64,000 nucleotides of DNA, taken from assembly GCA_033762255.1 (NCBI GenBank), contig JANRLT010000014.1, forward strand, positions 62,001 to 126,000, written 5' to 3'. Below the pieces are notes generated by a model. The model ran no database searches and had not been told where the DNA came from. It worked only from the letters and a program-made list of their open reading frames with translations. A program made the position numbers and the translations under genes. The number at the start of each line of letters is the position of its first letter. Positions within the stretch are counted from its first letter, which is position 1. The stretch comes from Pirellulales bacterium. GTDB lineage: Bacteria; Planctomycetota; Planctomycetia; Pirellulales; JALHPA01. Below, piece by piece: positions 1 to 28,101 of this stretch.

Positions 1-325
1 AGGAATAAATGCAACACCGTTGGATGACAAGACGTTTGCCAATCCCACGTTTTCCGGCGGAATGCCCTTAAGCCGCGACTGGTTGGCGAGGTTCGCTAGT
101 TTTAGGCGTGGAACGCGCTCCGCCGTAGACAGAGCGTTGTTTCGCCGCCGTTCACAAGTTACTATTCACCGGCCAAGCACGGCGGTATTCAGGCATTGCA
201 AGGCTGAAATTCATGTTGCCGCGCGTCATGCCCAGGGCAACGCGCGCGGCGGATCGAGCGATCGTATGTCATCCGCGGGTTTCAGGGTGGGCGCTTGCGC
301 GCCCGCGGACCGGTTAGCAACCGGT
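1..325. other. Spacer with no supported gene
   Basis: GC-rich sequence with one short open frame (from position 20) that has no ribosome binding site or recognisable protein content and runs into the tRNA-like sequence that follows. I see no RNA gene in it. If the tRNA-like sequences belong to an array, the array may continue leftward past the window edge. Confidence 0.4.
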
Positions 326-396
326 TGTTGGTACGGGAGTCGAACCCGCGACACTCAGATTCTTAGTCTGATGCTCTGCCACTGAGCTAACCACGC
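326..396 (-). tRNA. tRNA-like gene, AAG anticodon, weak acceptor stem
   Basis: On the minus strand this folds as a class I tRNA: D arm GCTC/GAGC, anticodon stem TCAGA/TCTGA with loop CTAAGAA, a 5-nt variable loop, and T arm GCGGG-TTCGACT-CCCGT. The anticodon reads AAG (Leu, CUU), but bacterial tRNA-Leu has a long variable arm, which is absent. Only four of the seven acceptor positions pair (TGGT end with ACCA), and no encoded CCA follows. The body resembles tRNA-Lys. It may be a pseudo-tRNA, or a member of an accessory tRNA array with relaxed identity. Seen: fold and anticodon. Inferred: non-canonical status. Confidence 0.6.
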
Positions 397-499
397 TAGG
401 ATACCCCGTCGTTAAAACCCATGTACGGAACACGGTCAAGGAAATGGAAACCATCCAGACCGCGCCGCTGGCCGGGAGTATCATTGCTTGCCTCTAAAA

Positions 500-569
500 A
501 ACGCCCGTGGGAGTCGAACCCACGTAGCCCTGGTCGCAGCAAAGCGCCTTGCTGGCTGACTCTGGCGTT
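500..569 (-). ncRNA. tRNA-like RNA without a D arm
   Basis: The 3' half is a clear tRNA T arm (GTGGG-TTCGACT-CCCAC), followed by GGGCGTT, which pairs over six bases with AACGCC at the 5' end, so an acceptor stem exists. The 5' half is aberrant: no D stem or D-loop GG can be drawn. The anticodon-position hairpin is CAGCAA/TTGCTG with a six-base loop, and the variable region is enlarged. Total length is about 70 nt. It lies on the same strand as, and downstream of, the 270-residue protein gene ending at 796. It could be a decayed tRNA, a tRNA-mimic RNA, or the second unit of a tRNA array. Confidence 0.5.
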
Positions 570-795
570 AAACAGTTTCCTGCCAGGATTTTTCAAACCA
601 TGTCAGGCGGTTAAAGAGATTTCCAGCCCACCCGCCAGCGGACTGGTAAATTTCAAAAGAGAACGACTGTTTAGCGTTCCCATAGCTCCGCCGTGCCAGA
701 GCGCCGCCTGCCCGTCGGACGATCAACCCTTTATGTAGATAACCAAGCCCCGCGCCGCGGAAAGGATCAAACCTTTTCGCGACGCGCGCTTGGCT

Positions 796-1608
796 TTAAT
801 CGAGAAACGCCACGTGCCGCATGGCGGGCGCTTCGCTTTCTCGATTCATCAACACCTGGTGCCAATCGTGCAGGACGATCGTGGCGTGATCCGGATGGCG
901 AACCCGTCCCCGGGCATATAAACCAGGGTTGCGAACCATGATTCGCCACTCCTGGTTTTTCTGGCGGGGACCGCGATTCATCAATTCGCGATATTTTGCC
1001 TCGGTGATTCCCGTGGGATAACGGGCCGAAACATACACGCGCTCTCCGCCCGTGCGATACGCATACTCCAGCCAATGCGATTTTCCGCGTCCGCGGGAAA
1101 GGCGTTCGTTATTCAGCACCGTCCGCGGATCGATCCGCAAACCGTTGACTGGCACGAAAAACCATTCCCCTTGACGCAGAAACGCCGCGTTATGCCGGGT
1201 ATGCCCCTGCGCCTGCGACAACCGCAACTGCGACTGACGCTCTCGTACCTGCGCGGGTTTCAGAGCCTCCATCGCGTTGCGGACCGTCGATGTTGCGCCG
1301 TCCGGAACCGCCGCCACAAACCAATGCCGCTCGTCATGCCCGCACAGGAACTTGTGTTTTTCCCGGATCGTGGCATGCTCGCGGGTCATGAGCAATAAAT
1401 GGCGCAGCTTGGGCTCCAGGTTGAGGACCAGCATTTCGGGCCGCGAACCCGGGGTAATCCGCACGTCAAAGTATTCACCCCGACGGTCATGCGCAATGTC
1501 CAGAGTCACCATACCCGAATCTTGTCCCCAATTGGGACGCGTTCGCTCATGCACCCGCACGCGGGCTCCAATGCGCGAAAACTGCCGTTCTAAAATGGAA
1601 ATATCCAT
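796..1608 (-). CDS. Basic protein of unknown function next to tRNA-like genes
   Basis: A 270-residue protein, start taken at the ATG preceding DISILERQF because GGGA lies about 8 nt upstream; a longer frame reaches 1665. I do not recognise a named domain. It is rich in Arg and His. Striking patches are FLCGHDERHWFVAAVP near residue 90, a middle part ending in QGEWFFVPV, and RVRHPDHATIVLHDWHQV near the C-terminus, whose clustered His, Asp and Trp could be catalytic or metal-binding. There is no signal peptide or membrane segment, so it is probably cytoplasmic. The two tRNA-like sequences lie downstream on the same strand, suggesting a nucleic-acid-related role, which is inference only. Confidence 0.75.
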   Translation of the reverse strand: MDISILERQFSRIGARVRVHERTRPNWGQDSGMVTLDIAHDRRGEYFDVRITPGSRPEMLVLNLEPKLRHLLLMTREHATIREKHKFLCGHDERHWFVAAVPDGATSTVRNAMEALKPAQVRERQSQLRLSQAQGHTRHNAAFLRQGEWFFVPVNGLRIDPRTVLNNERLSRGRGKSHWLEYAYRTGGERVYVSARYPTGITEAKYRELMNRGPRQKNQEWRIMVRNPGLYARGRVRHPDHATIVLHDWHQVLMNRESEAPAMRHVAFLD

Positions 1609-24950: not shown

Positions 24951-27816
<2,866 letters not shown>

Positions 27817-27933
27817 TTGTATCAAAAACTCTAACTGATTCAAGGATTGTTTGTGAAAACAGTCCTCCGAATTCAGCTAAGTGCTGACAAGTGACACAAT
27901 CCCACGTGTTTTTTCGCGTGCGGAATGTGGCCA

Positions 27934-27949
27934 CCAATCTTCCACAATC
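27934..27949 (+). other. 3' arm of the 23S rRNA processing stem
   Basis: CCAATCTTCCACAATC, the exact reverse complement of 24646-24661, in the 23S-5S spacer. Confidence 0.8.
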
Positions 27950-27992
27950 GTAATTTGCGTGGCCGATCGAGACATCGGTCGGTCACGTCTTT

Positions 27993-28101
27993 TTCCGGTG
28001 ATCACATCTGAAAGGTCACACCTGTTCCCATCTCGAACACAGCAGTTAAGCTTTCAGAGCCGATGATAGTTCCAAAAGAGCGAAAGTAGGTCTCGCCGGA
28101 A
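27993..28101 (+). rRNA. rrf: 5S ribosomal RNA
   Basis: About 109 nt. The ends TTCCGGTGA and TCGCCGGAA pair (helix I). The core CACACCTGTTCCCATCTCGA and AACACAGCAGTTAAGC, the GCCGATGATAGT loop E region and AGTAGGTC are conserved 5S features. It lies about 180 nt after 23S, in the same transcript. Confidence 0.95.

Follow-up and report, generated by a model that had tools for sequence, protein, structure and literature searches.

Comparative analysis of the left end of a Pirellulales contig segment revealed that a tRNA-like sequence, RNA A, forms one domain of a conserved, predicted folded RNA of about 470 nt that has no listing in Rfam 15. Judged from its neighbours in related genomes, this RNA, here called the tail RNA, was shown to close the 3′ end of putative accessory tRNA arrays and to precede directly a gene for a slipin. 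The same comparisons showed the RNA and the slipin gene to behave as a two-part unit, which persists where the array and an array-associated 270-aa protein are lost.

The window, that is the whole stretch of DNA analysed, comprises 64,000 nucleotides (C14:62001-126000) of a genome in 72 contigs, and the relatives in the searches were mostly planctomycetes. In the window and the left flank fetched with it, the elements follow one another on the minus strand in the order P0001, RNA B, RNA A within the tail RNA, and slipin. P0001, the gene of the 270-aa protein, occupies 796–1608 with its start codon at 1608, and RNA B occupies 500–569. The first-pass annotation had placed both tRNA-like RNAs on the same strand as, and after, the protein gene; this order was confirmed and the frame is intact. 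The box drawn at that time, 326–1608, was too short, since the RNA that contains A (326–396) extends to about window position 16. Helix 1 of the tail RNA starts at about 483 and the closing 3′ helix runs to about 16, and a T-rich stretch can be read 3′ of it at positions 1–10. The slipin gene P0002 (L003:8824-9930, same strand) has its start codon at C14:61930, about 70 nt left of the window, and encodes an SPFH/Band 7 protein (PF01145 Band_7, E 1.2e-28). ARAGORN made zero tRNA calls in the window. No dense run of co-oriented tRNAs was found in the window and left flank, where only A and B are in place and the nearest further tRNA, a tRNA-Met, lies about 10 kb away. The rRNA operon at window 24951–28101 (23S and 5S genes, with no Rfam 16S match elsewhere in the window) is likely unlinked. 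A partial tRNA reduced to its anticodon and T arms, which may be the remnant of an integration site, was seen elsewhere in the same genome (C42:67441-67490, L004).

Direct reading of RNA A (396–326, minus strand) found D, anticodon and T arms, the loop CTAAGAA with the triplet AAG, and acceptor pairs 4–7 but not 1–3, in agreement with the earlier description of a tRNA-like RNA with AAG and four acceptor pairs. The Rfam tRNA model matched window 329–393 on the minus strand with 51.7 bits (E 3.3e-8 over the 64-kb window), over model positions 4–67 only. The domain was parsed in 51 of 53 tail-RNA copies, the other two being unparsable. Among the 51, acceptor pairing survives at positions 1 to 7 in 7, 9, 20, 27, 44, 46 and 49 copies, respectively, and CCA stands at the expected place in 4 of the 53. 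Twenty-two different triplets occupy the anticodon position in 47 seven-base loops, AAG being the commonest (7), and U33 is present in 31 of these loops. The D, anticodon and T arms are paired in 100% of cells of a 35-sequence alignment, in which they form helices 5, 6 and 7. Set beside a functional elongator tRNA, the domain has the three arms, and mostly lacks both the seven-pair acceptor stem with CCA and the constant anticodon with U33. Because pairs 1 and 2 are mostly lost, U33 is often absent and the 47 loops carry 22 triplets, we conclude from the sequences that the domain is not a decoding tRNA; its conservation is the pattern of a putative mimic that would need the tRNA elbow and neither charging nor decoding. 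Acceptor loss is not universal, as the tRNA-like part of some copies (L168, L169, L176 and L178) matches the whole tRNA model. ARAGORN-type calls at such sites (Ile, His, Leu, Lys, even "Stop") would mark tail-RNA domains, not tRNA genes. The reading of A as a separate aberrant tRNA was dropped, as A lies within a larger conserved fold.

Nucleotide comparison found close copies of A at the very end of intact arrays, directly before slipin, with the flanks of A also conserved; in seven loci the alignment extends from the Cys tRNA across A and over several hundred further bases. A model, R1, was built from seven sequences, with a core corresponding to window 272–468, and scored its own members at 142–202 bits and everything else in 92 loci at no more than 54 bits. 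In 296 genomes of the order, R1 reached at least 70 bits in 52, with full-length copies. A few matches fell at 62–70 bits, followed by a long tail from about 62 bits down that was of tRNA type as far as inspected. Absences of the tail RNA are soft, because only about 8 candidates per genome were scored in this search. Across 343 genomes of the phylum, 17 passed E 1e-18. This genome and one more belong to the same order, ten represent a different family within the class, and the other five, mostly with weaker matches, come from further groups of the phylum. L180, which is among these five, has an array upstream and a slipin downstream.

For the fold analysis, 35 of the 53 RNAs were aligned at full length, two at contig ends being skipped. 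The consensus fold of the core has a structure conservation index of 0.81, with z −12.6 against column shuffles (n=35). The structure that was counted has 105 pairs in 18 helices, with 86.9% of cells paired versus 77.1 after shuffling, 77 pairs changed on both sides versus 51.3 ± 3.1, and a covariation score of 0.352 versus 0.188 ± 0.006; none of 500 shuffles reached the observed paired cells, double-sided changes or covariation score, in a control that ignores relatedness. Slid structures scored 0.08–0.12, a lenient control since the structure was derived from the same alignment. From 5′ to 3′, the predicted layout is a long stem and a hairpin, the tRNA-like domain (helices 4–7), two hairpins, and a 3′ domain with a 16-pair closing helix.

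Using ARAGORN at the 53 loci, 159 same-strand tRNAs were found upstream of the RNA, none on the opposite strand and none downstream. At least one upstream tRNA is present at 35 loci, and the nearest is tRNA-Cys(GCA) in 20 of these; the remaining 18 have no ARAGORN tRNA within the stretch of up to 1.5 kb examined upstream, so an array is not essential. As all upstream tRNAs are on the same strand with none downstream, and slipin follows, the RNA closes the array on one side and leads into slipin on the other. RNA B (569–500, minus strand) occupies the same place as the tRNA-Cys(GCA) of relatives' intact arrays in a column-by-column alignment. It carries the triplet GCG in the loop CTGCGAC by direct reading, and scores only 16.1 bits against the Rfam tRNA model. 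It has six acceptor pairs, a perfect T arm, an anticodon stem of 5 bp including two G-U pairs, a 3-bp D stem (GTC/GGC) and a D loop without GG. Thus the six-pair acceptor stem and T arm reported for B in the first-pass annotation are present, and its statement that B lacks a D arm is wrong, given the D stem and the alignment with array tRNA-Cys(GCA). Of the two separate tRNA-like RNAs that it had described, B is a variant tRNA-Cys at this place, and A turned out to be a domain of a larger RNA. Its suggestion that the locus is the edge of an accessory tRNA array held up: the order protein, Cys-type tRNA, A-type RNA and slipin recurs in intact arrays, and relatives of P0001 have 442 same-strand versus 2 opposite-strand ARAGORN tRNAs at 78 loci. 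By this comparison the window holds an eroded array tail, in which P0001 is retained and the putative variant tRNA-Cys is all that is left of the array. The largest array among the P0001 relatives holds 42 ARAGORN tRNAs (L060). Within it, a second acceptor-poor tRNA-like sequence (L060:3523-3587) lies between complementary CACGAGC and GCTCGTG, as if the predicted tRNA-like fold were closed by an outer stem.

A P0002-type slipin (56–72% identity, tblastn) was found downstream of the RNA at 47 of the 53 loci (26/30, 18/20 and 3/3), and two of the six loci without one are contig ends. Searched independently of the locus set, 52 of the 296 genomes of the order have a P0002-type slipin, and in 46 of them the RNA is likewise present with at least 70 bits. 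When weaker RNA matches are included, the RNA lies upstream on the same strand in 48 of the 52. Of these 48 pairs, 45 are within 600 nt, with a median gap of 414.5 nt from the model core, and in two genomes the distance grows to 1125 and 1550 nt. Among the remaining slipin genomes, two have RNA and slipin split over contigs and two have no RNA. Six RNA genomes gave no slipin match at E 1e-80. A conserved gene past slipin was sought and the idea dropped, as none was common to all 12 regions compared and three regions only share more. In L014-L017, L022, L079, L081 and L089, arrays with a P0001-type protein are followed by a different slipin, about 26–29% identical to P0002, and these loci have no R1 tail-RNA match.

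We propose, with a confidence that stands midway, that the tail RNA and slipin form a module of the tRNA-damage or translation-stress kind, with the array as its supply of spare tRNAs. The tail RNA would be produced either together with the array, as its final element, or from a promoter of its own, and its tRNA-like domain would present the tRNA elbow and anticodon arm to tRNA-binding, tRNA-processing or tRNA-cleaving proteins. Most members would be unchargeable, as a full acceptor and an encoded CCA are absent, and unable to decode, as neither the anticodon triplet nor U33 is kept. The most likely job of the RNA would then be to couple the state of the tRNA pool to slipin, that state being damage or shortage in translation stress, or attack by an anticodon nuclease. 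The coupling could run through a leader that controls slipin expression, or through RNA bound with slipin. The array would provide spare tRNAs, and P0001 would be an optional accessory of such arrays. The link to stress is drawn by analogy with the TrcR regulon of Anabaena and from the TROVE, RtcB, RlaP and RNA-ligase genes at loci of P0001 relatives. A bolder form of the proposal, which we regard as speculative and put forward tentatively, is that the tail RNA may represent a new class of large RNA in bacteria with a built-in tRNA decoy. This decoy, hypervariable in its anticodon loop, would serve as a bait or a gauge, either for anticodon nucleases or for a shortage of tRNAs; the RNA would act with its own slipin membrane scaffold while the array replaced tRNAs, the whole making up a planctomycete tRNA-damage response or phage-defence module.

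The close spacing of RNA and slipin also fits an action of the tail RNA in cis only, as a long 5′ leader of slipin in which refolding or cleavage would decide between termination and read-through. The RNA is immediately upstream on the same strand in the 48 of 52 slipin genomes described above, and in 17 of 35 relatives a run of at least four Ts comes right after the closing helix, versus 33 of 700 control stretches. However, half of the relatives have no such run (the longest in the window is 3), two gaps exceed 1 kb, and six genomes have the RNA with no slipin match. A leader with 18 helices would also be unusually large. A purely cis-acting leader is possible, though we consider it on the unlikely side.

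A third reading is that the tail RNA is a free-standing, putatively self-assembling RNA of the GOLLD/ROOL sort, with the tRNA-like part as cargo or tether and slipin as a mere neighbour in a stress island. The setting is the same, with tRNA arrays and a pseudo-tRNA within the RNA gene described in the parts of two papers at hand (PMC6582537, PMC12286853), and structured 5′ and 3′ regions flank the tRNA-like part on both sides. However, cmscan gave no GOLLD, ROOL or Y RNA match down to E 1 at 6 loci, E 3 at 10 loci and E 5 at 14 loci. In addition, the RNA measures about 470 nt versus more than 800 for many GOLLD members, and tight coupling to slipin is not described for GOLLD in the available portions of these two papers. 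We hold this reading to be rather improbable. Rfam 15 gave no match to the tail RNA except via the tRNA-like part; at the gathering threshold, the best 150 of 229 matches were all tRNA. Identity with a known Rfam RNA was dropped as a candidate, since besides the tRNA-type matches only weak sub-threshold ones were seen. A search of viral contigs with a sequence pattern gave 0 hits for the tail RNA, with a pattern that is insensitive, as it recovers only 12 of 171 known loci. In the openly licensed literature, subscription papers being mostly outside its scope, we recognised no paper describing the tail RNA or the 270-aa protein family.

For P0001 itself, the genome collection yielded 185 confirmed relatives, 80 of which were retained; they come from Planctomycetota, Acidobacteriota, Verrucomicrobiota, Deinococcota and Chloroflexota. 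An alignment of forty members has 48 invariant columns, including a CGHDER run and an RQGEWFF run. The protein has no Pfam match and no PDB-sequence match of note. Its AF2 model (pLDDT 92.2, pTM 0.87) gave nothing significant in PDB or BFVD by Foldseek at E 0.001 and a best Z of 2.6 by VIA-align, which does not show that the fold is new. P0001 was also considered as a mobile-element protein, an idea dropped when tblastn found no match in plasmids or phages. Shorter variants, several of about 220–230 aa, are found at L035-L039, with L035, L036 and L038 within tRNA arrays, and genome G006 has relatives at three separate chromosomal places.

Within 3 kb of P0001 homologues, 547 T-arm hairpins lie on the same strand versus 13 on the other (all 110 loci, duplicates included). 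At 78 loci, counted without the duplicates L012, L013, L018, L021, L023 and L029 and the start-codon-less L093 and L097, at least three same-strand tRNAs are present in 26, one or two in 8 and none in 44. Along the protein tree, 15 changes of the array label are counted versus 29.8 in shuffles. The protein is therefore array-associated and yet also found without an array; by homology it is a conserved family, frequently within such arrays and frequently not. Same-strand neighbour families include TROVE/Ro60 (17 loci), slipin (12), RtcB (7), HNH (6), the RlaP nucleotidyltransferase (4) and RNA ligase (3). RNA-repair islands, several with tRNA arrays, were seen for example at L080, L083, L096, L100, L086, L103 and L071. 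TROVE or RtcB adjoining the locus in the window was considered and dropped, since the genome has no TROVE match and its one RtcB match is on another contig.

The first-pass annotation had also suggested a protein acting on tRNA mimics, that is, P0001 as an effector that recognises the mimic and for which the RNA would be a decoy or sensor. The two are adjacent and co-oriented here and in L027, L028, L038, L041, L055 and L092. P0001 matches occur in 35 of the 296 genomes of the order, of which 30 are strong (the weak G029, G054, G086, G103 and G134 being omitted), and strong homologues are present in 12 of the 52 RNA genomes, where about 5 are expected (P 0.0018, a hypergeometric co-occurrence figure that ignores relatedness). 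However, 40 of the 52 RNA genomes have no strong homologue, 18 of the 30 protein genomes have no RNA, and 44 of 78 relatives have no nearby ARAGORN tRNA. We therefore consider a P0001 effector improbable. The constant partner of the putative mimic in these genomes is the slipin gene, not P0001. Homologues of the protein do lie mostly away from tRNAs, and the RNA folds, in contrast, are clearly conserved. The earlier observation was mostly right but marks a larger feature, and its reading of a protein on mimics is unsupported as stated. That A and B are decayed, functionless tRNA genes left by erosion of an array is most improbable, for although no array is recognisable in the window, B is degenerate and array tRNAs of relatives have divergent bodies, the domain of A, like the fold around it as a whole, is conserved and shows compensatory changes even where the array is gone; for B alone, decay may apply.

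The proposed tail RNA–slipin module can be set against several known systems. YrlA, a bacterial Y RNA and partner of Ro60/TROVE, has a tRNA-like domain and, as with the tail RNA, represents a tRNA-like module in a non-coding RNA linked to RNA-repair genes; it is much smaller. Unlike YrlA, the tail RNA has no Y RNA family match, and the genome of the window has no TROVE match. tRNAOther of Bacillus cereus is a tRNA-like RNA that is not functional in translation (PMC3399842); it differs as a pseudo-tRNA flanking a genomic island, with no larger RNA or slipin mentioned in the part of that paper available. In Anabaena, as described in the available text of PMC10272220, one repressor, TrcR, governs the trn tRNA operon together with rtcB and a slipin gene. 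The trn operon is a silent 26-tRNA array that is switched on under translation stress and is co-repressed with rtcB, slipin and an HNH gene (PMC10272220). By their gene names, the slipin alr0740 and the plasmid-borne array are unlinked, and that text makes no mention of a tail RNA.

ROOL is a large RNA near tRNA islands (PMC12286853); unlike ROOL, the tail RNA embeds a tRNA-like domain, a feature not described for ROOL in the available part of that source, and it has no Rfam ROOL match. GOLLD is a large ornate RNA found in phages and prophages and in the tRNA arrays of mycobacteria. It occurs within tRNA arrays, its gene containing a predicted pseudo-tRNA (PMC6582537, as far as available), or has tRNAs in its linker (PMC12286853, as far as available). 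Many of its members exceed 800 nt, and both GOLLD and ROOL are in Rfam with their function not known (PMC12286853, in the portion at hand). The tail RNA differs in being about 470 nt, lying at the 3′ end of the array, adjoining slipin and having no Rfam GOLLD match; its tight slipin coupling has no counterpart in the available parts of the GOLLD papers (PMC6582537, PMC12286853). It resembles GOLLD in its place at arrays (35 of 53 loci with same-strand tRNAs) and in its tRNA-like domain (51 of 53). GOLLD is hence the closest published parallel that we found, a likeness of kind by which descent is not implied. The tail RNA would thus be an Rfam-unlisted RNA of this general GOLLD/ROOL sort. It embeds a tRNA mimic whose elbow is conserved and whose anticodon is not, its position where accessory tRNA arrays end is fixed, and its strict pairing with one protein, slipin, would offer an experimental handle on an RNA of this sort.
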